Shown here: positions 2,700 to 55,044 of the stretch, in pieces
Layout of the letters: every line of letters begins with the position of its first letter
How positions within the stretch are numbered: position 1 is the first letter of the stretch
NCBI GenBank assembly: GCA_039566865.1
Contig: CM076961.1
Coordinates: 9,447,501-9,511,500 of the forward strand
Length of the DNA: 64,000 bases
Source: Aurelia coerulea
Lineage: Eukaryota > Cnidaria > Scyphozoa > Semaeostomeae > Ulmaridae
Direction of reading: 5' to 3'
Program-made: the position numbers and the translations under genes
Notes under the pieces: generated by a model
Told to the model about the DNA's origin: nothing
Databases searched by the model: none
The model's input: the letters and a program-made list of their open reading frames with translations, nothing else

Positions 2700-3983
2700 A
2701 TAACTTTAAAACCCTATTTACAATCATGCAATATTTACAATTGAAAGAAAAATTAACCCTTTATTGACTTCTCAAAACCATTCAGGGAGGATGCCGTCTT
2801 AGATTCAGCTGGGAGGCTATTCCATAGTTTAGCTCCCCGGAAAGAAAAGCATTTTTGCCCATTTGTTGACTTTTCTTTGGCAACCTTAAATCAGTTTCAG
2901 TATTCCTGAGACTGCGGGAGGAACTTGTTGAGTTTTTGATAAAAAGGTTACACAGGTATTGTGGAGCCAAATCATTGAGCGACTTGAAGACCATCATTTT
3001 AGAAACATCAATGAGTTCTACGATAGTCTTCCAGCCCAACTCATCGATAAGTTGTCTGCTTGGGGTATCAAAGCTGCTATTTGTAATCATCCTAGCAGCA
3101 CGATTTTGAAGCTTTTGCAACTGGTTTATGTCTGTAGAACCAGCACAACCCCAAACAGAACAACAATATCGAAAATGGGGCTCAACAATGCTTGTGTAAA
3201 GAGTTTTCAAACTCTCCTTAGATAAAAAAGACTTAGCATGTCTTAAAAAGCCGATTGCCCTGGAGACCTTGGTAGAAACTGCCTTAATTTGCTCCTTCCA
3301 GTCCAAAGAGCTATCGATTTGTACTCCAAGGTACTTTGTCTTTTGAACTACTTCGAGCTCATTGTCACGTATTTTCAGTTCCAAGACTTCGTTTCGACTT
3401 TTGAGAGAGTTGTGTTTCTGCTTTGTAGATATGAGCATTGAATGAGTTTTTGCTACATTCAACAAGGACAGCTTATTGCCTTGCAACCAAGTGTCCAGTT
3501 TTTTAAGATCACTGTTTATAGCCTCATTCAACTGAGTCAAATCGTTCGACTGTTGGCACAGACTGGTATCATCAGCATACATAGTCACAGAGGAATTTTG
3601 GACAGCCTGGGGAAGATCGTTGATATAGATGAGGAAGAGAAAGGGGCCAAGGCATGACCCCTGTGGGACTCCCACTTCTATTTCCTGGATATCTGAATCA
3701 ACACCGTTAACCCTACAGAATTGTTTGCGGTTGGATAGGTAGGAACTAAACCAAGATAGCTCTCGCTGCTGCACGCCATAAAGTTCGAGCTTTTTACAAA
3801 GAATGTCGTGGTCGACCGTATCAAATGCTTTTTTCAGGTCAATAAACACTAATCCCACCAATTTACCGAGATCAAGCCCATTGTACTAATCATCGTTCAT
3901 TTTAAGCAAACAAGTCAGCGTGGAGTGAAGGCGTAAAAACCCAGATTGGTCAGCTGTGAAAAGGCCATTTCCTTTCATATGCT
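2700..3983 (-). pseudogene. LINE family A, reverse transcriptase C-terminal part and 3' end
   Basis: This is the 3' portion of an APE-type non-LTR retrotransposon. Read on the minus strand it shows the RT fingers and palm: FIDLKKAFDTVDH (motif A), GVPQGSCLGP (motif B) and MYADDTSL (catalytic motif C), then the thumb and the conserved YLGVQID and HFRYCCSVWGC segments. One in-frame TAG lies at 3886-3888. The frame slips near 2850, so the last residues are not the original ones. Coding sequence continues across the insertion at 3984-6119 into 6120-7400. The 16116-16765 copy is a close relative. Replication-incompetent as it stands. Confidence 0.9.
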
Positions 3984-11984: not shown

Positions 11985-14801
11985 TCCTTTTAGATGGATT
12001 TAAACAGCCCTACCGTTTAGATGTAACATCAAATTGTGGAGGGATACTTGTAGACGTAAATGACCAAATTCCTTCAAAGGAAATAAAGTCTGTTTCCATA
12101 CCAAATGATATACAAGCCATTCCTATTGAACTAAATATCAGAAAATGCAAATGGCTATTGCTCCCCATCTACAAACCGCCTTCTCAAAACGAGGCATATT
12201 TCATCAACCAAATTGAAAAAATATCAGACTCTTTATCAAACTCGATAAAAAACTGTCTAATTTTCGGAGATTTTGATATGGAAGTATCTAGCAACATATT
12301 AAACTCATTTATACAGAACAATGGCTTATACAGCCTAATTAAATCACCAACTTGCTTCAAGTTCTCTATCAATCCGAGATGTATTGACCTGATGTTAACT
12401 AATATGAAACACAGTTTCTTTGCGAGCCAGTCTTTTAAGATCGGCTTCAGTGACTGTCATCACTTAATTTACACGGTACTTAAAACTCAATTCACAAAAC
12501 TCCAGCCAAAACGTATTAGATCTCGCGATTATAAAAAGTTTTCTGAGAGTCGTTTTCCATCAGATCTAACAGGCGGAATCCTGGAAACAAACCCAGATGA
12601 CCTCACAGAGTTTGAAAATGTTTTTGTGGAAACACTGAATAAACATGCCCCACACAAAACTGTTCGAGTCAGAGGTAACAACAAACCATTTGTGACGAAA
12701 GAGCTCCGAAAAGCAATGATGCTGAGAACTAGGCTTAAGAACATTGCAAATAAGAGCGGAAGCGAATATGACAAAAAAAGGTACCGTGTACAGCGAAACC
12801 TTGTTGTCAAAATGAACAAGGATGCCAAGAGAGAATATTACAGTAAAATAAATCCCACAGAAGCAGGTAAAGAAAAGACTTTTTGGAAAACGTTTAAGCC
12901 ATTGTTCTCATCAACAGGTACAGCTACTGATAAAATAGTTCTGGTCGAGAACGAGGCTATACTTACTGATGATAAGGAGGTTGCCGAGTGCTTTAATTCC
13001 TACTTTGCAAATATTGTAGAAACACTTAATATTCCCCCTGAGGTTTTAGAGGAATATGAAACATCTCCTGATCCAGTTGTAGATGCAATCAACCCAAGTA
13101 TTAAGAAAAGCAAGGATATGTATGATACCTAGGGAAATTTTGAATCCTCCAAGGTAGACCCCACCCAAGTCTTTAGCGAAATCTATCGATTAGATAAATC
13201 AAAGAAAACAAGTGGCGGTATTACTGTTGACATGCTTAAGCTAGCTGCAAACCATTGCTACAAAGAAATCACCCACCTCATAAATAATGGAATCCAAAGT
13301 AGCACGTTTCCATCTAACCTTAAGTTAGCTGACCTATCACCTTGCTTCAAAACTGGGCATTCGGCTACAAAGAAGAATTTTCGACCAATAAGTGTGCTAT
13401 CATGTCTTTCTAAGATATATGAAAGACTAATGTACACTCAAATGCCCATATTCGTGAAGGACAAGATTTCACATCTATTGTGTGGATTTCGACAGAAATA
13501 TAGCACCCAGCATGCCTTGATTAAGTTAGTTGAAGCATGTCGCAAATGCCTAGACAATAAAGGGATCATGGGCATGGTACTTATGGACCTCTCGAAAGCT
13601 TACGACTGCTTGCCCCACGACCTATTGTTAGCAAAACTTGCAGCCTATGGCTTTGGGACTGGTAGCTTAAATTTATTGCATAGTTACCTCTCACACAGAA
13701 AACAGCGTGTTAAAATTAGCTCCACCTTCAGTGATTGGCACTATAGCTCATCAGGTGTACCACAGGGTTCAATTCTTGGGCCGCTATTGTTTAATGTATA
13801 CATAAATGATCTTATATTTTGTATTGAGAAATCAGAAATATGCAATTTTGCTGATGATAATACATTGTATGCCTCTGGAGAAGACATAGGAGATGTAGCC
13901 ACATGTTTAGAAATTGATATCGAAAATGTTCTTAAATGGTTCGACTCTAACCGCATGGTGGCAAATCCTGAAAATTTTCAAGTGATGTTCCTTGGGCTAC
14001 CAAAAAGTGCAAACATCTGTATTGAAATTCATTATCTGGTTTTAGTCCCAAAAGATGATGTAAAACTTCTTGGAATTACCATCGACTCTGAACTGAAGTT
14101 TACAGATCATGTCAAGTCCTTGTGTGTCAAAACAAGTAGAAAAGTAACTGCATTCTCTAGAGCGGCAAGACTACTTGACTTCAAGAAAGCAAGGCTGCTA
14201 TACAATGCTTTTATACTGTCAAGCCTAAGCTATTGTCCGTTAATTTGGATGTTTTGTGGAAAAACCGCCAACAGGGAGATAAAAAAAATCCACAAACGTG
14301 CTCTACGTATACTTTTCAATGATTATGAAGCCTCATTCGAAGAGCTTCTACAAAGAAACAATGAGCAGACAGTCCATATAAAAAACCTCCATAAGCTAAT
14401 GACTGAGGTCTATAAGTCTTTAAATTGCCAAAATCCAACATTCATGTGGGATCTGTTCATAAGAAAGGAAGTGACTTACGACCTTAGAGCAAAAGATCTA
14501 TTACAGCTACCAAAAGCTGGAACTGTTTTAAACGGCTTAAAATCAATTGCCTTCAGAGGCAGTATTCTTTGGAACGCTTTACCTGATGAGATAAAGTCAA
14601 GCCAATCTATAGCCTCGTTCAAAATACATGTCAAACAATAGGATGGAGACAGTTGCAATTGTAATATCTGTAAGTAGCTGAAATTGTAAATATTGTATGT
14701 TTGTAAATAGTTGGTTTGAATTAGTTGCCCTATTTATAGAGTAAACTAAACTTTGTATCCAACTTTAAATAAATTCTTTATTATTATTATTATTATTATT
14801 A
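11985..14801 (+). pseudogene. LINE family B, endonuclease plus RT, 5'-truncated, two nonsense codons
   Basis: This is an APE-type LINE in a single frame. An endonuclease part runs from about 11985 (YRLDVTSNCGG, WLLLPIYKPP, IFGDFDME, IGFSDCHHLIY), then a linker. The RT follows, with motif A MDLSKAYDCLPHD, motif B SGVPQGSILGP and motif C CNFADDNTLYA. The C-terminus has a CNCNICK cysteine cluster. Only two stops break it: TAG at 13130-13132 before the RT, and TAG at 14639-14641 just before the cysteine cluster. The second stop is inferred from the conserved ending of related copies. A 3' UTR of about 110 bp ends in (TTA)n at 14780-14801. It is the best-preserved LINE here; few defects imply a fairly recent insertion. 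Confidence 0.92.
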
Positions 14802-32687: not shown

Positions 32688-32905
32688 CAGGGGCGGATCC
32701 AGGGGAAATTTTGACATTCGCACAAGGCTCAAGCTTAACGGATAAGTATATCCGAAGGAATGACCGAAGGTCATTCGAATAAAGCTGGGGGTTTGGGGGG
32801 CGCTTTGAGCCCCCCAACGGGTCCAGGGCAGGGCCCTGGTGGGGGTTCCAGGGGGCGAAGCCCCCTGGAAGCTATCGCATTTTTGACTTTCAGCAGGGCT
32901 TAAAT
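32688..32905 (+). mobile_element. hAT-like left-end fragment with GC-rich hairpins
   Basis: It begins CAGGGGCGGATCCAGGGG. It contains nested palindromic blocks (GGGGCGCTTTGAGCCCCCC; GGGCAGGGCCCTGGTGG; CCAGGGGGCGAAGCCCCCTGG at about 32847-32868). No right end was found. Confidence 0.5.
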
Positions 32906-32974
32906 TAATTCAAAATTAATGAATTATCTCCAACTATATTACCTCTACAAATGATAAAAATTGGTGCCACAGTA

Positions 32975-33138
32975 CGGTAAGAAACCGAAAAAATAGAAAC
33001 CAGTCATTAAAAAAAACAGTTTTTTTTAATACTTTTCAATCGAAAAATATAGATGTTTCTTATGTAAGGATACCTTTTCTACCCAAAATCAGCATGAAGT
33101 TTCTTCAAAAGTAATTTTTCTTTTGGGGGTTCTTACTG
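32975..33138. mobile_element. Mariner-like MITE, CAGTAAGAACCC family, short copy
   Basis: Left end CGGTAAGAAACC after TA (32973-32974); right end GGGTTCTTACTG followed by CA, a decayed TA. The interior GAAACCAG and AAGTTTCTTC motifs match 25320-25754. At 164 bp it is an internally deleted relative. Confidence 0.65.
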
Positions 33139-33580
33139 CATCACGATCACCATCAGGTCAAGATTAAAACAAAGTTGATAGGAAACTCACCAAAGATAAT
33201 TATGATCCAATCATATACATCAAATCAATCAACAATTAGATTCAGCGACTGTCTTTCAAACAGCATCTTTGTTGGAAAGCATACCTTCTGTTCTTCATGG
33301 CTCCTCTCCCTTTTTGAGTATGACTCATTGAACAACAAACGGTATTCAGCAAATGTATCCATTACCTCCTACTGCTTCAAACATCTCCCCGCTAAATAAA
33401 ATGATCTTCCAACAACAAAGTGTATCCCGTCATTTTGGTGAAATGAATGTGGCTTTTCAGCGACTGAGGATTTAGTTCAACGGAATATCGTATCAAATGA
33501 GGGGTAAAGAACGTGGATGGTTTGTCAAGTGCTCTAGGGTAAGATAACTGTCAGATAATAAGAAAAGATAGTTGGTTCGC
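33139..33580. other. Unassigned stretch before the satellite
   Basis: No gene was recognised, and no TIR that would bound the neighbouring hAT-type gene was found. Confidence 0.3.
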
Positions 33581-36500
33581 ATTGATCAGCAAGGAATCTT
33601 TTGAGCAAAATTAGGAACAAATGTCCAGCTTTGAGGAACTTGGCATGATAACTTGGAAGAGGGAAGAATTAGTCAACATTGATCAGCAAGGAATCTTTCG
33701 AGCAACATTAGGAACAAATGTCCAGCTTTGAGGAACTTGGCATGATAACTTGGAAGAGGGAAGAATTAGTCAACATTGATCAGCAAGGAATCTTTCGTGC
33801 AACATTAGGAACAAATGTCCAGCTTTGAGGAACTTGGCATGATAACTTGGAAGAGGGAAGAATTAGTCGACATTGATCAGCAAGGAATCTTTCGAGCAAC
33901 ATTAGGAACAAATGTCAAGCTTTGAGGAACTTGGCATGATAACTAGGAAGAGGGAAGAATTAGTCAACATTGATCAGCAAGGAATCTTTCGTGCAACATT
34001 AGGAACAAATGTCCAGCTTTGAGAAACTTGGCATGATAACTTGGAAGAGGGAGGAATTAGTCAACATTGATCAGCAAGGAATCTTTCGAGCAATATTAGG
34101 AACAAATGTCCAGCTTTGAGGAACTTGGCATGATAACTTGGAAGAGGGAAGAATTAGTCAACATTGATCAGCAAGGAATCTTTCGAGCAACATTAGGAAC
34201 AAATGTCCAGCTTTGAGGAACTTGGCATGATAACTTGGAAGAGGGAAGAATTAGTCAACATTGATCAGCAAGGAATCTTTTGAGCAACATTAGGAACAAA
34301 TGTCCAGCTTTGAGGAACTTGGCATGATAACTTGGAAGAGGGAAGAATTGGTCAACATTGATCAGCAAGGAATCTTTCGAGCAACATTAGGAACAAATGT
34401 CCAGCTTTGAGGAACTTGGCATGATGACTTGGAAGAGGGAAGAATTAGTCAACATTGATCAGCAAGGAATCTTTTGAGCAACATTAGGAACAAATGTACA
34501 GCTTTGAGGAACTTGGCATGATAACTTGGAAGAGGGAAGAATTAGTCAACATTGATCAGCAAGGAATCTTTCGAGCAACATTAGGAACAAATGTACAGCT
34601 TTGAGGAACTTGGCATGATAACTTGGAAGAGGGAAGAATTAGTCAACATTGATCAGCAAGGAATCTTTTGAGCAACATTAGGAACAAATGTCCAGCTTTG
34701 AGGAACTTGGCATGATAACTTGGAAGAGGGAGGAATTAGTCAACATTGATCAGCAAGGAATCTTTCGAGCAACATTAGGAACAAATGTACAGCTTTGAGG
34801 AACTTGGCATGATAACTTGGAAGAGGAAAGAATTAGTCAACATTGATCAGCAAGGAATCTTTTGAGCAACATTAGGAACAAATGTACAGCTTTGAGGAAC
34901 TTGGCATGATAACTTGGAAGAGGGAAGAATTAGTCAACATTGATCAGCAAGGAATCTTTCGAGCAACATTAGGAACAAATGTCCAGCTTTGAGGAACTTG
35001 GCATGATAACCTGGAAGAGGGAGGAATTAGTCAACATTGATCAGCAAGGAATCTTTCGAGCAACATTAGGAACAAATGTCCAGCTTTGAGGAACTTGGCA
35101 TGATAACTTGGAAGAGGGAAGAATTAGTCAACATTGATCAGCAAGGAATCTTTCGAGCAACATTAGGAACAAATGTCCAGCTTTGAGGAACTTGGCATGA
35201 TAACTTGGAAGAGGGAGGAATTAGTCAACATTGATCAGCAAGGAATCTTTCGAGCAACATTAGGAACAAATGTACAGCTTTGAGGAACTTGGCATGATAA
35301 CTTGGAAGAGGGAAGAATTAGTCAACATTGATCAGCAAGGAATCTTTTGAGCAACATTAGGAACAAATGTCCAGCTTTGAGGAACTTGGCATGATAACTT
35401 GGAAGAGGGAAGAATTAGTCAACATTGATCAGCAAGGAATCTTTCGAGCAACATTAGGAACAAATGTACAGATTTGAGGAACTTGGCATGATAACTAGGA
35501 AGAGGGAAGAATTAGTCAACATTGATCAGCAAGGAATCTTTCGAGCAACATTAGGAACAAATGTCCAGCTTTGAGGAACTTGGCATGATAACTTGGAAGA
35601 GGGAAGAATTAGTCAACATTGATCAGCAAGGAATCTTTCGAGCAACATTAGGAACAAATGTCAAGCTTTGAGGAACTTGGCATGATAACTAGGAAGAGGG
35701 AAGAATTAGTCAACATTGATCAGCAAGGAATCTTTCGAGCAACATTAGGAACAAATGTACAGATTTGAGGAACTTGGCATGATAACTTGGAAGAGGGAAG
35801 AATTAGTCAACATTGATCAGCAAGGAATCTTTCGAGCAACATTAGGAACAAATGTCCAGCTTTGAGGAACTTGGCACGATAACCTGGAAGAGGGAGGAAT
35901 TAGTCAAAATTGATCAGCAAGGAATCTTTCCAGCAACATTAGGAACAAATGTCCAGCTTTGAGGAACTTGGCATGATAACTTGGAAGAGGGAAGAATTAG
36001 TCAACATTGATCAGCAAGGAATCTTTCGAGCAACATTAGGAACAAATGTCCAGCTTTGAGGAACTTGGCATGATAACTTGGAAGAGGGAGGAATTAGTCA
36101 ACATTGATCAGCAAGGAATCTTTCGAGCAACATTAGGAACAAATGTCCAGCTTTGAGGAACTTGGCATGATAACTTGGAAGAGGGAGGAATTAGTCAACA
36201 TTTATCAGCAAGGAATCTTTCGTGCAACATTAGGAACAAATGTCCAGCTTTGAGGAACTTGGCATGATAACTTGGAAGAGGGAAGAATTAGTCAACATTG
36301 ATCAGCAAGGAATCTTTCGAGCAACATTAGAAACAAATGTCCAGCTTTGAGGAACTTGGCATGATAACTTGGAAGAGGGAAGAATTAGTCAACATTGATC
36401 AGCAAGGAATCTTTTGAGCAACATTAGGAACAAATGTACAGCTTTGAGGAACTTGGCATGATAACTTGGAAGAGGGAAGAATTAGTCAACATTGATCAGC

Positions 36501-36878
36501 AAGGAATCTTTTGAGCAACATTAGGAACAAATGTACAGCTTTGAGGAACTTGGCATGATAACTTGGAAGAGGGAAGAATTAGTCAACATTGATCAGCAAG
36601 GAATCTTTCGAGCAACATTAGGAACAAATGTCCAGCTTTGAGGAACTTGGCATGATAACTTGGAAGAGGGAAGAATTGGTCAACATTGATCAGCAAGGAA
36701 TCTTTCGAGCAACATTAGGAACAAATGTCCAGCTTTGAGGAACTTGGCATGATAACTTGGAAGAGGGAAGAATTAGTCAACATTGATCAGCAAGGAATCT
36801 TTCGAGCAACATTAGGAACAAATGTCCAGCTTTGAGGAACTTGGCATGATAACTTGGAGGCGGCGAGAATTAGGCAGC
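33581..36878. repeat. 97-bp satellite, 34 units, no detected length variation
   Basis: Head-to-tail units are anchored on ATTGATCAGCAAGGAATC at 33581, 33678, 33775, 33872 and so on to 36782. The total span equals exactly 33 periods of 97, so I see no net indel across the array. Variants recur in non-adjacent units: CGAG/TGAG/CGTG, GTCCAG/GTACAG/GTCAAG, GGAAGAATT/GGAGGAATT. This suggests gene conversion or unequal exchange. Because 97 is not a multiple of three the array cannot be a protein repeat. It ends within about 10 bp of the stop codon of the gene at 36887. Confidence 0.97.
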
Positions 36879-36886
36879 ATTGAACT

Positions 36887-39800
36887 TTAGTATAACTCGG
36901 AGGATACAACATCATCTTCGTTCTGCAAAGTTACGTCAGAATTAAGGATATTGATCATGGTCATTCTTCTATTGTGTCTTCTTCCAAATATGTCTATTGC
37001 CTTATCAACATTAACTTTAATGTCTTTGTGGGTATAAAGAGAAGCCAAGCCATTTAAGCGTTCCTGTGACATTGTGCTTCGAAGGTACGTCTTTAACAAG
37101 GGAATGGATGATGCTGATCTTTCACAGGTACAGCTGGTGACAGGAAGAACTGCAAGAATTTTTAAGGCTGTAAAGATGTTGGGGAAAGAAAGTGCGTTTG
37201 TTTTTTTGATCGTCTGAGTTATGCTGCATGGCAACTCCTTGTCTGGAACATCTTTCCATGCAGATTCCCAATTATCAACCTCATGCGACAAGTTAGAAAT
37301 GTTCGGCAAGTCCTTCTCATACTGAACGCAAAAATCTCGAAAATCACGTTTCCATTGATTGTCTAGCCGTTGGATATCGACTTTGGACTTTCTGCTCGAA
37401 TGGGCATCAAAGGTTTGACCATCAGTTGTGTCAGTTGGCTCTGGGTAGATATTTTCTTCCAGCTGATCCTCGTTGATGACACTGTGTGCCGTCACATCAC
37501 TTTCGTCGTAAATTATAGGCTCGTGTCCTTTCTTTTCGCTGCATTTGTAGTCATTCTTCAGGATTGCTGGTATAATCGATGTTCCTTTCATGGCGATGCA
37601 ATTTTTCTGGGTGAATCTTGTTGACATTTCACTTATCAAATGATCAAGGAATTTGATGGAGACATTGCGTTTGAAATAATCTTTCACACTCTCTGCTGGG
37701 ATGTTGCTTCTATTTACTTGACGTCTGCAAATTCTACGATTTGTTATGGGTGCCCCAATTTCATTTGCAATCTCAGTAGCCTTCTGAAACCAAGTTTCGT
37801 GGTATGAATCGATCAGATTCCTTGCTGTGTTAAGAGATTTCATCATAATGTCGACTTGCTTCAATCCTTCAATGATGTCAATATGGGCTCCTTGTAGCTG
37901 AATGGTTACTGATCTTGTGTAGCCAAGACAATTCCTCACAATAACAAGCGTCATCAGGAAGTCGAAATTGGAACAAACGGCAGCCAGTGCATATGCTTCT
38001 GCAGCAGCAGAATCCCACTTTCTATCAACATTATCACGAATTGTGAACAAAGCTTCTGTGATAGGAATATACATTTCTAGAAATCTTGCCAAGCCATCAA
38101 GTCGTAGCACCCATCTGGTTCTGCATACATCAATTAATTTTGTGTACTTGTACTCTGGCATAAGCTTCTTGGTCATTTCTTCTAAGAGTAGTTGTTTCTT
38201 TGGTGAATTATTAAAAAACTTTGATATTACTTGAATATTATCCATCATGTTTCGGACATTCTGGACCTTGCAAGCAGCAGCAACACAAAGATTGAGCTTG
38301 TGCGATGCACAGTGAGTGTAAAGGGCCAGGTTGTTTTCTTGCAAAATGCGAGTTGCGACTCCAGAGTATTTTTCAGCCATGTTGTCTGCCCCATCATAAC
38401 ATTGACCACTGCAATCTTTAATATCGAGCTTTAACTCTTCATTGATGCATTTGGTGATCTTTTCTTGCAGTGCCATACCAGATACTCCTTTGTCACAATG
38501 AATGAATTTTATAAATCTCTCCTGGATCTCTCCCTCTTTATCAACATAGCGCAAAACTAAAGGCATCTGTTCTTTATTTGAGCAATCTGTCACCTCATCG
38601 GCAAGGATAGAATAAAATTTGCTCTCTTTTACTTCTTCGATAATTTGTTTTGTGACTGTTTCAGCACAGCAAGAAATAAGTTCATTCTGTGTCGTTTTGG
38701 AACGACAAGTTGCATTTCGTGGTGCCGTTTGAAAATGCTCCTCAAGCACTTTATCACCGCTGTCAACCCGAAAATCCAGCAAAGCTTGAAAGTTGCCACA
38801 GTTGTCGGTCTCGTAGTTATCAGAATCGTCCCTGTGTCCACGTAAAGGAATGTTGTGTCTTGCACATAACAATACTGTTTTGACAATGGGGGCAAGTTTA
38901 TCACGATTTTTGGAGATGGTTCTGTCCAATATTGTGTCGTGAATTTGATTGATCGGTTTGATCTTGTTTTCTTTTACTTTGGTGAACGTTTGCATGGTAA
39001 GGAGAGAGGCTTTATGAACATCATTTTTTGTGTGATCTTGAAAACGACGAGATGCACATGACCAGTCTACAAATGGACTCTTCATCAGCTTGTCAAGTTT
39101 TGAGGCATTAGCACCAGTTTTGCGACCAAAAAGAACGCAGGCAACACAAAAGGCACCATCAATTTTTTTGGAATACACCAACCATGGAAACTGTTGGAAC
39201 CAAGAAGACACAAACTTTCGCTTCTTTCCAGAAATAACACGGGAAGGAAAGGAAAAATTTTCATAAGGCTTCCAAACGTTTTTCAAAACATCATACTTCT
39301 GGCTATCATTCAAGCTATTTGCGTTGAGACTGATGGACCCTATATCAAAATCTAATGCTTTCTGTGAGCTGGATTCAACGGGAGGGTCTCCAGAAAGATC
39401 TTTGCCTGTATTTGTCACTTCATTTCGAGAAAGAATGGCAAAGGAATCTTCTTGGACAATCTCTTCCTCTGTTTGCATAACAATGGCTGGCTTAGGAGGA
39501 AAGAAAAGCTTTGACTGTTTGATTTTCTTGGGATTAGGTGCACTGGAGGAGCTTGCTCTTTTATTTGTTCCTTTAACAACAAAGATAGGAACAACGTGAT
39601 TTGGCAGAGAAGAAGGGTATACATCATCTTTTGGTCCCCCAGAAGTTGTCCATAAGATTCTGACAGGATTGGCACTTTGCAAATTTTCTCTGGGAAGAAG
39701 CTGTGCATGGCAAATTTTAACAGAATTCTTTCTACCATTATCTGGATAGATTGAATGGATGGGGAGGCCTAGAACACTTGACAAACCCAGAAAACAAATA

Positions 39801-40109
39801 AAGGGACTCCAATGACCACTTACACAATTCAAAGATGCCTCAGATTTTATGGCATCAGAGAAATTTTGCCTGTTGGTGACAAGCAGGTCATTTGGACTAA
39901 ATGTAAATGACCTTGAAAAGAATGTTTCCATTAAATCCTTTTGGTTTGATGTTGCCAAATTTGTAATGAAATGAGGATGAGAAGCATAAAATTCTGAAAA
40001 CAGGAACAGCTCAGCAGATGTTAATGCCCTCAACAGATGGGACAAGTCTTCAGAACCAGAGATTGCCATAGAACATGAATTGTACAAACAATTGCCATCA
40101 TCTGAAGAC
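36887..40109 (-). CDS. OTU-like protease module fused to hAT transposase, exon 2
   Basis: This long open exon encodes residues 71-1144 of a predicted 1144-residue protein. The acceptor ...AACTAG lies just before 40109; the split codon started by exon 1 (AA) is completed by G, giving K-S-S-D-D-G-N-C. DGNC (C78) is the OTU cysteine-protease box; NH at 241-242 could supply the histidine. A basic stretch (PKKIKQSK) is near 264. A TTF-type zinc finger follows at about 375-436 (C392, C395, C422, later His). The hAT RNase H-like core has ADEVTD (D575), YDGADN (D643) and CASHKLNL (671-678). The dimerisation domain is at about 1052-1112 (LPVTSCTCERS, LKTYLRSTMSQERLNGLA). Expected role: DNA transposition, or a domesticated derivative, in the nucleus. 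No nonsense codon, unlike every LINE here. No TIR was found around it. Confidence 0.88.
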
Positions 40110-40244
40110 CTAGTTAAATAAATTAAGTAGCTGCCTCAATTGATTGATTTTTTTGCATTTTTCACAATATCAGTAACTTCATGTTTTCTAGTAAGATATA
40201 TAAAAATAATGTATAAGGTGATTCATGAGACAAATTCTAAAGTA

Positions 40245-40492
40245 CCGTAAAGCTCTAATTAAGCCCATGGGGACTTATTTAATTCTGGACACTTCTTAGT
40301 CCTTTTACATCACATTTTGTGGTTTAATCATACAATTTTACAAGTTAAATATATGAATTCAACACAGTTTTATCTCAAACCATATCAAAATTAACATGCG
40401 AACTCATTTAGCTCAATAATGGAAATCTTTGGTAACCTCTGGAATTTGATATAAGTGTTAATGGAGAGGGGGACTGAACAGAGCTTTTACGG
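40245..40492. mobile_element. Mariner-like MITE, CCGTAAAAGCTC family, copy 2
   Basis: TA flanks at 40243-40244 and 40493-40494; ends CCGTAAAGCTCTAATTAAG and, complemented, CCGTAAAAGCTCTGTTCAG. The interior matches 29126-29524. It lies in the predicted intron. Confidence 0.8.
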
Positions 40493-41725
40493 TAACTGCC
40501 TGCATACATGTACCCCAGAAGAGCAGGAGTCACAAAAGTCTGGATGAAATTGTCCTTTGTCTATCTATGATCTATTTCTTTCATAAAAAGTACTCATTCT
40601 TTGAAAGTCTGATTTTGAGCTAAAGTTACTTAATTTGTTCTCTATTGCACAAATATGCACAAAAGCATAAACCAATGTGAACATTTCATATTTCATTGCA
40701 TTGCATCAATACTGCTATTTTGCGACAAGGATTTTAGGCCCTGAGTCTTGATAAATAGCCTGTGTATAGGGTCTGCAGGGGAAAAGTGGGTAGAAGTTGT
40801 AGCTTGAGGAAAACAGTGAACAAGATTTTAGCAAAATTTATCCAAATTGTTCGCACTACCCATTTTACCCTAAACTTTACCCACTTCACCCCCAACAGAC
40901 CTAAACATAAGAAATGTGTTGACTGGTGGTACTCAATGGTGCAATTAATATATCCCTTGATCGTTTCACATGTTACACTCAATGCAACAGAGCAGGTCCT
41001 TTTATCATGACTCAACATCTTTGATAAAGATATTGCACATGATGATCACTTAAGTCAATAATTTATACTCATCCAGTTAGAAAAACACAGAGCTAAAAGT
41101 GACTGAACAAGAAAAATAAAAGCTAAATAAAAAATAACCTTGCTGCATCTTTCAAAGGGTCATCTTTCAAGCTTCACAATGGCTTGATTCCAGAGTGATA
41201 AGTTTGCAAAGTGCACACGGAAGATGTGCACCTGGCTATTGTTTTAAGAAGAATTGCTCTATTGTTCTTCTTTGTTATATGAAATTGCGTGCGGAACATC
41301 TTCCGCACGCACCACATAAATAGCAGTCTGGGCTTGATTATTTCATTTCTTCCCAAGCTGGGCATTTATTATTGGGAAAATTACTGTGTACAGTGGAGGG
41401 TGGAGTTTGGGAGACTGAATGAATGTTGAGGAGACAGGAGACCATTATTTCATTTTGAAATTTATTGCTTAGTTGTTGTCCGTAGAAACAATAAAATAGC
41501 GAGATAATGACTTCTGTGTTCCTTGTTCGAAGTTTTCCTATACCCACCCCACTCCACATGCAAAGAATTAGAATTAGGCCTAGACTAGGTCCAGGAGGAG
41601 GCTAGGCCCCACTCCGCGACAATCTAGATCTTGATCTAAGCCATGTTTGATATTCAGTTCATAAAAGTATGTATATTTACTATAACACTTAGCTGCCTAT
41701 TTCCTAATCATCTGTGTATAGTTAA

Positions 41726-42562
41726 AGGGAATATAAGCATATATCAGGCGCTTTCTATAAATAGATACACCAGAGCATGCGCATAGCAGTTGCATTCTAA
41801 CTGTGCACGTGAAAGTGAGCTCTGCATTGCAAATTTGTAGTGCGAGGAGATTCTCGATATACTTTCCAATATGGTTACCCAGCAAGCAAGATTCCTTCTT
41901 CCTGACTGCGACGATTCTGAAGTAGTTTGCTCGAGTGAATCGAGATAAAAGAAGTGAGAAGGAAAGGTAATTTAGCTCCACTTACGTCTCAATGACCTAA
42001 TCGTATGAGTTGTTTGTTGTTTGCCATCATTGTCGCGATCGATGGATCCAGTGTTTATATTAGGCCCGGCTCGGCTGCTTTGTTGAATGCTCACTATTTA
42101 TCAGTATTTCTTCCGCAACACTAGCCCTTTGTCCATAGATTCCGTAAGGCTAACTTTAGTGTAGATTCCCTTGTCTGAAGATACGTTTAGGCCCAATGAG
42201 ATGTGCTTGTTTATCCTGTACCCATCCATTTCAGCAATTCATTCGTATCGTAAATGGACTCAAAGCGCTTCGATTCTTCAGGACATCAAATTCTGTGGCT
42301 ACAAGGTCTGCTCCATCACGGAGGTCAATGAACAGGCAATATTTCTTTCCATTTCTTGTCCGTTTTTGCCCCTTAGCGGATAGAGAAACAACGAAGCAAC
42401 TCTTCCCCGCCATTACTGATCGCCCGTTACGTGCCCTCGTGCAGGCTAGGCTGCAGTGAAAGTGATCACGTGCAATGGTAGATAGCTTGTTGTGATTGGT
42501 TAAATTTGATTGACAGTTTAGGTCTTGTGGCTCGGAGCCACTTATATATGCTTATATTCCCT
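41726..42562. mobile_element. TTAA-flanked MITE in the intron
   Basis: TTAA at 41722-41725 and 42563-42566. TIR AGGGAATATAAGCATATAT on the left; on the right the complement reads AGGGAATATAAGCATATATA. The TTAA target resembles piggyBac, but the terminus lacks CCC, so the assignment is loose. Length is 837 bp. A 60-codon frame at 42231-42413 on the minus strand has no recognised motif. Confidence 0.75.
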
Positions 42563-42620
42563 TTAATGAGTTTGGTTGGTTGATCTTTTTAAAAGGAAAG
42601 AGCTACATTACTGTACTTAC

Positions 42621-42832
42621 TTTACAATTATTATGCTCTCATTTTGATCAATATCCAAACGATGATGTCTTGCTGGCAGGAAAGCTTCAGCATGGCTATC
42701 AAGAGGCAATGCTCTTACTGCAGCATCAGATAAGAGGGAAACATTCTTCAATCGATTCTCTGCAACAAATTCTTCGATGCTTGCGGAATCTTGCGCGTCA
42801 ATAAAGGCTTTAACTTTGTCGAGGATTTCCAT
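42621..42832 (-). CDS. OTU-hAT gene, exon 1 (start codon to donor)
   Basis: ATG at 42832-42830, then 70 codons plus two bases, ending at a consensus donor (GTAAA/GTAAGT). The peptide begins MEILDKVKAFIDAQDSASIE and looks helical and acidic, ending in hydrophobic ESIIIV. It has no catalytic motif and would lead straight into the OTU box of exon 2, where OTU domains normally begin with a short strand before DGNC. The start is chosen because it is the first ATG of this frame and the frame ends at the donor. Untranslated upstream exons cannot be excluded. Confidence 0.7.
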
Positions 42833-43340
42833 TTAAAGCTTCGATGATAATTTGGCGCCCTTTTCGAAGAAAAGCAGAACAGAAAGACTTCAATGCGAGG
42901 CCAATCACATCTCTTCCTTTGCCTTTTGCCTAAATAACATCGATTTGTTCTCACAGTTTAAACAGCATCGCTCGCCTCGATTTTCCCACGCTTTGAAAAA
43001 TAGCACATCACATCGCTTTCCTCGATCCACCATTGGCATTTCTTCAGAGCTCAGACTGGACCAAAAACCATCGCTCGCCTCGAGTTCGCCCAGATCAAAA
43101 TCTCGCTTCTTAGCATACGTCTCATCGATATCCTGGTGAAGTTTTGAATGAAGATTTCATCAGCAAAAATCATCCCTATCCTCGATTTCGCATCCATTGC
43201 ATCCAATAGATCTGGAGAAAAGTCTTGACTGCATTCTTTGAGATCTGTTCTATAGTTTCCGGTTTGTTGGCTTCTCCACGGTCCGTCCATCGGAATGCTG
43301 AAACTCGTCTATAAAGTTGCTGCGCATGCGCTCCGCAACA
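42833..43340 (-). promoter_or_regulatory. Candidate promoter/5' region of the OTU-hAT gene with an NRF-1-like site
   Basis: No open frame here is convincing. The sequence is richer in CG dinucleotides than its surroundings (repeated CTCGCCTCGA, CATCG, GCTTCG). TGCGCATGCGC at 43321-43331 matches the NRF-1 consensus found in many animal housekeeping promoters, about 490 bp upstream of the ATG. No TATA box was identified. Promoter role is inferred. Confidence 0.4.
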
Positions 43341-43448
43341 ACAATAAAAGAATTATCGTGGTTAGGCCAAGTAACATCTACATTTAAAATGTAAAAAAAA
43401 AATGATATCTTCGTGACACAATATGTCGTACAGAATCTTTTACATTAA

Positions 43449-43829
43449 AGACCCTGTGCTAACCAGCAGTCTTTGCAGGCATTCTTTGCAAGATAGATAA
43501 ACAACCTTGTGCAAGATGACACGTGCAAGGTATGCAAGTTGGAATGGCTCCTTTGAAATTGGAGAAAGGGAATATCAAATTTTGGACTCTACAGCATTGT
43601 CTATGTAACAACGCCATTCAGTTGGAAACTTTATCAGAGATTTGTTTTGTTATCAGGAAGAACAGCATTTCATTGTACATTCTTAAATTAGCTCACAAGC
43701 TGACGAGACTTTCTTCTGTTCTTTTGGGGACTAGGAATTTTTGCAATGATCTGTGGGATTTTAAGGGTCTCTGAAAATGCATTGTGGGATAGCTGATGAC
43801 CACAAAGACCCATGGTTAGCACAGGGTCT
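43449..43829. mobile_element. TTAA-flanked MITE, 16-bp perfect TIR
   Basis: TTAA at 43445-43448 and 43830-43833; TIR AGACCCTGTGCTAACC exact at both ends. Length is 381 bp, non-coding. TTAA suggests a piggyBac-type target choice. Confidence 0.8.
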
Positions 43830-43833
43830 TTAA

Positions 43834-46608: not shown

Positions 46609-49290
46609 TTGGCTCCTCCTCCGGAGAGCTCTTCCTCCTCTCTAAGTAGCCTGCTCATTGAGTCTGCACGCAGGCTACTCTCTAAGGCGCTGCAAAACAA
46701 TAAACATACCAAAATGAAACTTGATTTTATGGAAAATCATTTCAATAACAATAAAGCTGACGTTGACAAAGCGTGTAAACATTTTCAAGAAATATTACCA
46801 AGTGCCGCAAAATCTTCTCTTACTTCCTCGCGTGAAACAAACGGTAAAATGATCTCATCTGATAAAAAATGGTTCGACTCTGAATGTAAAACGCTAAAGG
46901 ATGAACAGCGGTATTCCTTGAAAGAGAGACATAACAATCAAGAGAACGTAACTTGTCAGGAAGAATGTAAAAATTTGTCCAAAACATTCTCTAACCGATG
47001 TTAACTAAAGAAGAAATCATTTTTGGAGAACAAAATCAACGAATTACAGAGCTCTGAACCGGAAGAATTTTGGGACAGATGGAAAACTTTTCATGACAAT
47101 GGGGGGGGGGGCCTTCTTCTTCTGCCCCAATTTTAAAAGATGACAATATATGGGAAAAATACTATACCAAACTATTTCAAAGCAACTGCAAAAAGTCATC
47201 TCTTAATGTTCCAGCAAACTCTCAGTCTCAAGCACAAAATGTAAAAATATCATAAAATGCACCTATCTCAGAAACTGTATCAATAAACTTAAAAATGGCA
47301 AAGCAACAGGTATAGACTATCTAAATCTCGAATGAGATGATAAAAACTACTTTTCCTCTGATCAAAGAAGCGTTCCTTAAGTTACTAAACCTCCGTTTAC
47401 AAAGTGGATGTGTGCCGTCGATATGGTGCAAAAGTGTTATCTCACCCATTCACAAATCTGGTAATAAAATGGACCCGGAAAATTACAGACCTATATGTGT
47501 TATTAGCTGTCTGGCGAAACTGTTTTGCCTCGCTCTAAATAACAGGCTAAAAGCACAGACATCTGATCACATTTTCACATGGAAAACGTTAATTAATAAA
47601 TATGTGCATCACCAACCGAGAGAAAAAATTTATGCATGTTTTGTGAATTTTAGAAAAGCTTTCGATTCGGTCTGGCACAATGGTCTTTTCCATAAATTAG
47701 AAGAACTAAACATTACGGGAAACTTTCTTTCGATCTTAAAAATATGTATTCACAAAGTTTATGCTCCGTTCAAATTGACAACATGATGACACAATTTTTC
47801 CCCTATTCTAAAGGTGCCTGTCAGGGTTGCCCTCTTAGCCCGACCTTGTCCCTAACCTTGCACTCTGCAATTCATCTCCCTTAGGTCTACCGAATGGTTC
47901 AAGCATCAGTTGTATGATGTATGCCGATGACCTCATACTTCTCTCCAGATCTGAAGAAGGGCTACAGTATATGCTTGACAAGCTCCAAGAATTCAGTGAG
48001 TCCTGGGAGCTATCCATAAACTTGAAAAAAACAAAAATGTCTCACCTTCCAAAAGAAAAATAAAGTCAGTCACACTTCGACCTTCTATGTGCAGAATACG
48101 GCTATAGAAAGCGTCTCTGAATACACTTACTTGGGAATTACTATCAATTGTAGTGGATCCTTTCGTACTGCTCTAGTTGACTTAAGAAACAAAACAAATC
48201 TTGCATTCTTCTCTCTTAATAGCAAATACCAATTCAAGAAACTACCAGTCCGAGTATTTCTAAAACTTTTTGATTCCCTATTATCTCCAATCCTTTTATA
48301 TTGCTCAGAAGTTTGGGCTTCTTTTGATTACATGGACCTTAAAAAATGGGACCTATGTGAAATAGAAAAAATGCATCTTAACTTTTGCAAAAGAATCCTT
48401 GGAGTGAACAGATCTACAAGCAACATTCTAGCAAGAAGAGAACTAGGAAGATACCCCATTAAACTCACAGCTGATAATCGTTTCATCTCCTTTTACCGTC
48501 ATATTGAAAATATGCCATCAGAAACCCTAGTCTACCAATCACTTCTCATGAATAAAGAACTTCCACTAAACCTGAGTTGCCTAACCCACCTGCAGAATAT
48601 AGAACACTTCGCATCCACCTCTCTCGTATCTAATTTCTCCAAAGTTACTATGAAACATTCGTTAAGACAAGCTTACAGATCCTTCTGGAGATCTAAAATT
48701 CACGAAACCCCAAAAAGTACTTTCCTGTCTGAAATATCGATAAAGAGTTTGTATATGAAACTTATCTCGATTGTCCGATCAGAAAAACAAGAATACTGAC
48801 AATCAAACTGCGTACAAGCGATCACAATTTACGATTGAGAAGGGTAGACATTCAAGACCTGTTGTTCCAAGAAAGAAAAGACTATGCCAATCGTGCAATC
48901 ATAATTCCGTCGAAACAGAATTCCACTTTTTAAGTGATTGCTCAGCCTATAGTGACATTCGTGTGAAATTCCTGTCAAAAATCGTAAACCAATTTCCAAG
49001 CTGCAAACTCTTGAAACCAAATAGCCTGTTTCAATATCTTTTTATCAATAAAGAAGTAGTCCAAGATCTCCTGACATTTATTCTGACTATACATAATAAA
49101 AGAAACGAAAGTGTCACTAACTCGAACCCCACGTCTCACAGTGTCTAACTTGGATTTTATTCTCGTTCGTTTCGCTTTATATAACCTTAGTTTTGTTTCT
49201 TCTTAGTTAGATTTGTTTGTAAATTTAGTTGTAAATTTACCTGTAAAACGTTATTGTTAAATTTACAAATATACTATCAAATTAAGACAG
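46609..49290 (+). pseudogene. LINE family C, multiply frameshifted
   Basis: A different LINE lineage. Open pieces: 46609-47004 (endonuclease-RT linker, with WFDSECKTLK), 47337-47786 (RT fingers and motif A; ENYRPICVISCLAKLF, FRKAFDSVWHNGLF), 47800-48060 (GCPLSP then MMYADDLILLS, the catalytic motif C, starting at 47914), 48089-48799 (YLGITINCSG and thumb), and 48771-49148 (a cysteine/histidine C-terminus, CQSCNHNSVETEFHFLSDC). Several indels, including a 10-base G run at 47101-47110, separate them. The 3' part to about 49290 is AT-rich. Inactive. Confidence 0.85.
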
Positions 49291-53469: not shown

Positions 53470-55044
53470 AATCTACGCTTTTGGTGCCAGTGCCAAGCAA
53501 GGGGCCCGCAATTTTTTCTAGGATCCTGGAGCGGATAGTACACGATCAGATGTTTGATTTCCTTCTTGAAAATAATGTAATCACCAAGAATCAGTCAGCT
53601 TTTCGTAAACTATACTCCACAATAACATCCTTGATATGCAGTACCGATTTTTGGTATGAAAATATTGACAGTAAGAAATTGAACTTGACCATATTTCTTG
53701 ACCTAAAGAAAGCATTTGATACGGTCGATCACAAAATAATGGTCAACAAATTGTGCAGATGCGGTATAAGGGGCAACGCTGGGAACTGGTTTAAGTCCTA
53801 TTTAGATCATAGGAAGCAATTTTGCTCTGTAAATGGACAGAGATCAATGACAAGTGAGGTAACGTGTGGCATACCTCAAGGTTCCTGCCTAGGTCCACTC
53901 CTTTTTATCATATATCTAAACGACTTCGAGAAGTGTTTGAAATTTTCCCAAGCAAGTATCTATGCCGATGATACAAATGTAACAATCGCATCGGATGATG
54001 TTGAGAAACTGGTCTTAGAGGCGCAACAGGAATTGCTCAACCTCTCAGAGTGGATGAGAATAAATAAGTTAAGTCCTAACCCCGCAAAGACAGAATATAT
54101 GATAATAGGCCATTCTCGTAAAGTAAATGCGCTGAATATCTCGAATGCACTCACGTTAAATGACTCAGATATTAAGCGTGTTACGAAGACGAAATCGCTA
54201 GGTGTAACTGTCGACGAGAACCTAAAGTGGGAAGAGCAATACAAAACTGTGAAGGGTAAAGTTTTTGGAGCACTTGCGTCATTAAAGAAATTAAGAAATA
54301 TAATTCCCCAAACAAAGCTGTGTAGTGTCTACTACGCTATTGTCGAGAGCCATCTACGTTATGCTAATGAAATATGGGGCAGCCTTCCAAAAACAAAACT
54401 TGATACCCTCCAACGTCTGTAGGACAGGACCCGGTCAATAATCGAAAGCGCCAGATTCAAGGATAACTGGTCATGTGACTGGCTGAGCGTTGAAAATATT
54501 ATTCGATTTGATAGATCGGTCATGACATATAAGATTATGAACAAATTAAGCCCTGAAAGCCTCTGGGATAAATTTCAGCAAAGATCGTCGCAGTCAAACT
54601 ATGCAACAAGATACTGTAGAGATCTACAAATTCCTAGACTAAATACAGAATATGCGAAAAAGAGTTATTACTATTCTGCTATGAAAGTTTGGAACAATAT
54701 CCCAGTTGATATTAGAGAACTCCCGACTATTAGTCGCTTTGAAAAAGAACTAAATGAGTATTTGAAGAGCTGACTGAAAATATCAGTTTAAAACACGACC
54801 CCCTGGAAGAACAGCATCTTAGGTAATTTGATCTTTTGTTAATAACCAATTTATTTATTGTATTTAAGCTGAAGGGTAGTTTCGTGTATAAGAAATTATA
54901 TCATATCATATCATATCATATCATATCATATCATATCATATCATATCATATCATATCATATCATATCATATCATATCATATCATATCATATCATATCATA
55001 TCATATCATATCATATCATATCATATCATATCATATCATATCAT
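53470..55044 (+). pseudogene. LINE family D, RT with one nonsense codon and (TATCA)n tail
   Basis: The 5' end is truncated near the RT start. It then has a continuous frame with LERIVHDQMFDFLLENNVI, motif A FLDLKKAFDTVDHK, motif B GIPQGSCLGPLLF and motif C IYADDTNV, thumb, and YANEIWGSLPKTKLDTLQRL. A single TAG at 54420-54422 interrupts it. The same frame resumes to the true stop at 54771-54773 (KVWNNIPVDIRELPTI, FEKELNEYLKS). The 3' UTR is short and ends in about 29 TATCA units (54897-55044), best read as the LINE's own 3' tail. The insertion lies inside the hAT element. Confidence 0.92.
54897..55044. repeat. (TATCA)n microsatellite
   Basis: About 29 near-perfect 5-bp units terminating the family D LINE. 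The open frame across it (repeating YHIIS) is not a gene. Confidence 0.95.

Follow-up and report, generated by a model that had tools for sequence, protein, structure and literature searches.

Why transposons repeatedly gain domains that remove ubiquitin is an open question, and it is raised by a gene on the minus strand at positions 36887-42832 of the stretch analyzed here, 64,000 nucleotides of Aurelia coerulea contig CM076961.1 (the window). An earlier note had described this gene as a spliced one that joins an OTU-type protease module to a hAT transposase, a description borne out by its reading frame, its catalytic-type box and its Pfam hAT domains. We consider it likely that the locus is a 5′-truncated hAT copy with a two-exon OTU-zinc finger-hAT gene whose OTU domain serves the transposase in cis, as a module directed at ubiquitin.

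To which element does the gene belong? A search of the animal's own genome (574 Mb, 294 contigs) returned a second copy on contig C3, whose exon 2 is 99% identical to that of the window. The C3 copy is 8,502 bp long, has 14-bp inverted ends with AAGGG outside both of them, and keeps an intact spliced frame. Homology to C3:7105472-7113650 begins exactly at window position 32688 (CAGGGGCGGATCCAGG) and ends at 43207, and the C3 copy extends 323 bp beyond the window's 5′ side, to the inverted CAGGGGCGGATCCA. The window locus is a 5′-truncated hAT transposon copy, and its noncoding features are as follows:

32688-43207, minus strand: remaining transposon copy, by homology to C3:7105472-7113650
32688-32701, plus strand: 3′-side terminal inverted repeat of 14 bp; the C3 copy has the inverted partner at its opposite end, and the window lacks it
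33580-36883, no strand: 97-bp tandem array of 34.1 units, lying within the element; C3 has a shorter version
41722-42566, no strand: TTAA-flanked inverted-repeat element in the intron, not in the C3 copy

What we took to be a Tip100-type terminus had already pointed to 32688, and the comparison with the C3 copy confirmed this position as the end. Short terminal inverted repeats, as in the hAT superfamily, are thus seen as 14 bp in the C3 copy, of which the window retains one end. A scan for inverted ends with a duplication around the window gene alone found none; the main scan reached no further left than 33000, and the window copy has lost its 5′ end. The hAT transposase called complete in the earlier note did not prove to be so as an element, with its 5′ terminus missing and five conserved transposase places unmatched (see below), and the window copy is probably no longer mobile. 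The intronic TTAA element, which has at least 34 other copies in the genome (95-99%), is probably a later insertion because it is missing from the C3 copy. Two further hAT-type termini, like 32688 at 14 of 15 bases, occur on the plus strand at window positions 1676 and 2427; no good partner end was found for them within the window. The hAT part has further relatives, 92-96% alike, at C21:3242832-3244476, C5:2931145-2932761, C5:3047625-3049241, and C5:13168377-13170640; they have no long frames in the DNA examined and are decayed copies or derivatives.

The gene itself is made up of two exons:

42832-42621, minus strand: exon 1 (ATG at 42832-42830; 70 codons plus 2 nucleotides)
42620-40110, minus strand: intron, phase 2, from GTAAGT to TTTAACTAG (CTAG end), with the acceptor AG at 40111-40110
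40109-36887, minus strand: exon 2, stop codon TAA included

As had been claimed, exon 1 ends in phase 2 at GTAAGT (42620), the frame is restored, and the spliced product runs for 1144 residues with no internal stop. The acceptor AG is at 40111-40110. The junction creates the expected OTU-like box, K71-S-S-D-D-G-N-C78, and N241-H242 follows further on. The predicted 42620/40110 junction is more than chance, because its donor and acceptor are shared by the C3 copy, whose frame survives a 3-nucleotide deletion in exon 1, because the acceptor AG is conserved, and because the tail of exon 1 ranks at the top. The AG occurs at the identical phase-2 place before the box in 14 of 14 other OTU loci (printed DNA read by eye), which represent nine families, the window's own included, several of the loci being near-copies. 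The tail, that is, the seven residues before the junction, ranked first among 49 possible donors in its likeness to relatives and to VCPIP1, the reference set being 11 tails hand-chosen by the analyst. The GTAAGT donor also had the best consensus score (7/9) among 32 ATG-anchored candidate first exons. In the relatives with a readable residue seven places before the cysteine, this residue is Arg in 43 and Ser in 5 of 60; the count matches what is expected of an unspliced AG|N, other codons also yield Arg or Ser, and it was made with a regular expression like one that missed G-S-S boxes.

The protein encoded by these exons contains the following parts:

39572-40108, minus strand: OTU-like domain, residues 72-250
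40088-40090, minus strand: codon TGT of the presumed catalytic Cys78
39596-39598, minus strand: codon CAC of the presumed catalytic His242
39002-39214, minus strand: TTF-like zinc finger stretch (C392, C395, H430, H436), found by eye, its C/H columns conserved
38360-38860, minus strand: DUF4371 stretch of the transposase (Pfam)
37022-37210, minus strand: hAT C-terminal dimerisation region (Pfam)

Both the dimerisation region and the conserved transposase core of the hAT superfamily are present: Pfam DUF4371 scored 98.4 bits, above its curated cut-off, and Dimer_Tnp_hAT 35.5 bits against a cut-off of 21.4. The core has the conserved D, RW, and CER motifs, which we take to be catalytic, and the zinc finger presumably belongs to the TTF family.

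Is the N-terminal domain an OTU? Judged by sequence, through its relatives and profiles, it belongs with the OTU cysteine protease family. In a wider OTU alignment with 48 members, window included, 31 matched Pfam OTU at E ≤ 0.01. Eight of nine OTU relatives scanned singly exceeded the curated Pfam cut-off; an OTU label had been the reason for choosing seven of these nine, and fusion to hAT is not shown for the eight. When the 48-member profile was compared with solved structures, 22 chains matched at E ≤ 10. Four, one of OTUD1 and three of VCPIP1, had E values below 0.001, the top values being 2.9e-7 for OTUD1 and 5.8e-7 for VCPIP1. The other matched chains were OTUD5, A20 (TNFAIP3), OTUD7B, two named ubiquitin thioesterase, OTUB1, three named RNA-dependent RNA polymerase, and one uncharacterized protein. 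Nairovirus polymerases carry an OTU. In the profile alignment, C219 and NHYIPLV of VCPIP1 line up with the family cysteine and NHFVPL; C219 is the catalytic cysteine of VCPIP1, and this protein with its NHxxPL motif is an active deubiquitylase, according to an excerpt of PMC12394548. The window protein has both catalytic-type residues, C78 and H242, and protease activity of this copy is plausible because they sit in columns that align with VCPIP1. Nothing relevant was found in a PHROGs search, Rfam gave no match at the gathering threshold, and no relative was found in the viral contigs searched. Related OTU domains were also seen without hAT in P0132 and P0154, one adjoining a PHD finger and the other in a mollusc protein source-labelled Vertnin, hinting at a wider OTU family.

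How widely is the fusion shared? The earlier note had proposed to look for it in relatives, and it is present there. A family OTU profile, built from 16 rows of which 14 are among the homologues, detected an OTU in 28 of 64 homologues (62 from one search and two from a second); some of those without a detected OTU may have a listed frame that starts late. A tree of the hAT core was built from 52 rows, 13 of 65 having been dropped as short or without the core motif, and P0036 and P0038, which are below the profile threshold, were scored as OTU by eye from their NHFVPL tail. All 27 OTU rows fell on one side of a branch with a Shimodaira-Hasegawa-like approximate likelihood ratio (SH-aLRT) support of 100. 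That side also holds five undecided rows and two without OTU (P0034 and P0022), and the opposite side holds 10 without OTU and eight undecided. Presence or absence of the OTU takes two changes on the tree with the undecided rows excluded and six with them treated as a class. OTU and hAT distances are correlated (r 0.71 over 23 rows, with 0 of 2000 permutations as high). Hydractinia and Dendronephthya are the named sources of fused members, and Xenia and Hydra those of OTU-only models; the names shown for them make no mention of OTU. On this tree, the OTU fusion is characteristic of one hAT branch, and one old fusion would be the simplest reading.

Several observations count against our account. 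Both ends and flanks of the element are visible in one copy only (C3). The window domain scored 20.5 bits with Pfam OTU, short of the cut-off of 23.3, and none of eight fused relatives scanned exceeded it (best 22.5), five matching below the cut-off and three not at all. Single-sequence searches of solved structures in the Protein Data Bank returned no OTU. Many OTUs have N or D two residues after the histidine, a place at which the window family has V. As for exon 1, comparison of the whole peptide with the N-termini of three annotated relatives, by hidden Markov model and by alignment, gave no significant similarity; the peptide ranks only 9th of the 32 candidate exons, a score reached by 0.49 of 2000 shuffles, and no good first exon was seen in the DNA examined upstream of loci L031 and L032. 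These last results would suit a gene model in which exon 1 and its splice are wrong and translation begins inside exon 2 or at a different first exon. We regard this as improbable, given that the donor and tail are the best among the candidates, that the acceptor is conserved in the 14 other loci, and that the C3 copy has the identical junction with an in-frame indel. Moreover, the first Met of exon 2 comes only after the Cys, and the AExFLP of exon 1 resembles AE[VI]Y[LVI]P, found some 20 residues ahead of the junction in P0024, P0069, and P0121; a candidate first exon upstream of L033 is comparable and has a similar motif. The earlier note had also offered domestication, and a long open frame next to fragmentary frames of long interspersed nuclear elements (LINEs) would agree with it, as would a gene fixed in place because its 5′ terminus is gone. 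A domesticated host gene in the sense of a single fixed copy under selection, with no mobile relatives, was rejected on account of the near-identical copy with both ends, and domestication of the window gene in general seems very improbable to us. Exon 2 differs between the window and C3 at 21 sites, 15 nonsynonymous (of 2537 sites) and six synonymous (of 682), which reveals no clear constraint, though the events are few. At the 15 residue differences, the commoner family residue is in C3 for 12 and in the window for three. Five of them are conserved transposase places where most relatives have the C3 residue and the window residue occurs in 0 of 41 to 0 of 52 relatives; by this comparison, the window copy appears to be in decay.

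The catalytic position itself supplies the remaining point on the opposing side. A scan of the genome for hAT frames, in which 150 of 418 candidates were scored, listed 18 places with frames of at least 1000 residues, and 16 of these were examined (the window, C3, and 14 others). Fifteen carry an OTU; the sole case with no detectable OTU was L039 (C5:10730500-10732700), upstream of a 1026-residue hAT frame. For ten of the 15, the DNA covered only the 5′ part, with the OTU frame uninterrupted as far as that DNA extends toward the hAT part, and we infer from place and length that it is the listed long hAT frame. The place of the cysteine holds Cys in five frames (the window, C3, L034, L035, and L040), Ser in nine, and Asn in one (L036), while the His is kept in all 15. 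The 15 locus rows of this alignment-based count hold the C3 copy twice and omit the window; it superseded a count by regular expression (64 Cys and 2 Ser of 66) that had missed G-S-S boxes. Because the Cys is replaced in 10 of the 15 OTU frames, protease activity cannot be general and is not a universal requirement. Over the OTU, L031, L042, and L043 (on two contigs) are identical and L038, L041, and L044 nearly so, all Ser-family copies with frames of 1074-1091 residues. Some Ser families have apparently spread recently, by their own or another's transposase; the comparison covered the OTU part, and duplication is possible. In a 29-row tree with the box masked in 28 rows (P0087 was unfit for the mask), Ser requires four changes by parsimony, at least two of them forced by starred branches. 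The proportion of nonsynonymous differences (pN, 0.33-0.53) was below that of synonymous ones (pS, 0.60-0.85, near saturation) in all 36 OTU pairs among nine representative loci, the Ser-Ser pair L031/L038 included (pS 0.78, pN 0.33), and the OTU domain appears to be retained under constraint even without the Cys. The Ser and Asn frames, the Ser-family copies, the constrained L031/L038 pair, and the parsimony count would also agree with an OTU that is a pseudo-enzyme throughout the clade, a ubiquitin- or protein-binding module in which the Cys has merely not yet been lost in some families. We think this rather unlikely: database relatives with a letter at the two places have Cys in 80 of 85 (Ser in two, Tyr in three) and His in 62 of 62, although the words used in the search were biased toward boxes with Cys, and the same NHxxPL motif belongs to the active VCPIP1. 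A possible alternative, which we put forward tentatively, is that the OTU has been in this animal hAT branch since its origin and that several families independently changed Cys to Ser, kept the His and the rest, and are still multiplying; the OTU would then be required as a ubiquitin-holding part, with cleavage optional.

What would an OTU do on a transposase? Under the reading we prefer, that of a ubiquitin-directed module, the domain would engage ubiquitin at the transposase in cis. In the Cys lineages, including the window, it would most likely strip the transposase or its partners of ubiquitin, which could shield the complex from turnover. Such deubiquitination with protection is our first choice for the Cys forms, held with considerable reserve. 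The OTU may instead act on repair factors, as has been proposed for Ginger1 (PMC2836005). In the Ser and Asn lineages, the domain would most likely serve to bind a partner or ubiquitin itself, with no cysteine catalysis of the ordinary kind. If the ubiquitin-holding alternative is true, the Ser forms would be nature's equivalent of the C-to-S trapping mutants made in the laboratory. Because Cys, Ser, and Asn forms of one domain occur naturally in one genome, a transposition assay could directly test whether cleavage, as opposed to binding, is needed.

OTU domains on transposases are already known from Ginger1 and Helitrons, and the hAT carrier is the new part as far as the searched literature shows. 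Ginger1, found in Hydra and other animals, is likewise a DNA transposase with an OTU protease domain, for which a role of ubiquitin in transposition was proposed, but its transposase is Gypsy-integrase-like and its OTU C-terminal (PMC2836005, in part). Helitrons and Helentrons also encode a mobile-element protein with a deubiquitinase-type domain (OTU or VTD); they differ in having a rolling-circle Rep-helicase (PMC9741609, in part). Membership in either group was ruled out, the window transposase being a hAT with an N-terminal OTU and Helitrons being rolling-circle Rep-helicase elements. Target duplications of hAT elements are usually 8 bp, with 5-7 bp in named subgroups and 5 bp in hAT5, according to the excerpt of PMC12730594. 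The AAGGG repeat is 5 bp and not 8, read at the one insertion on C3, and no such repeat is readable at the window copy; by this single insertion, the element would be hAT5-like. The same excerpt mentions no OTU domain for hAT5, and its hAT7 elements with a TET/JBP gene are a parallel to the OTU-hAT fusion. VCPIP1 and OTUD1 resemble the window OTU in their aligning Cys box, VCPIP1 also in the NHxxPL motif, but they are host enzymes, and we know of no transposase part in either. A literature search on OTU with hAT or transposons, covering titles and abstract starts, gave no hAT-OTU case; Repbase reports, a possible place of record, were outside this search. Many elements are described in such reports. 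The part of PMC10027918 seen does not mention OTU.

Two observations concern other mobile sequences in the window. A cursory look located LINE-type reverse-transcriptase frames, in pieces, at 2785-3885, 13133-14638, 47325-47783, and 53472-54419. Shortly past the point at which the transposon copy breaks off, a 389-bp stretch at 43445-43833 has 38-bp inverted ends starting with TTAA and is probably a small TTAA element.

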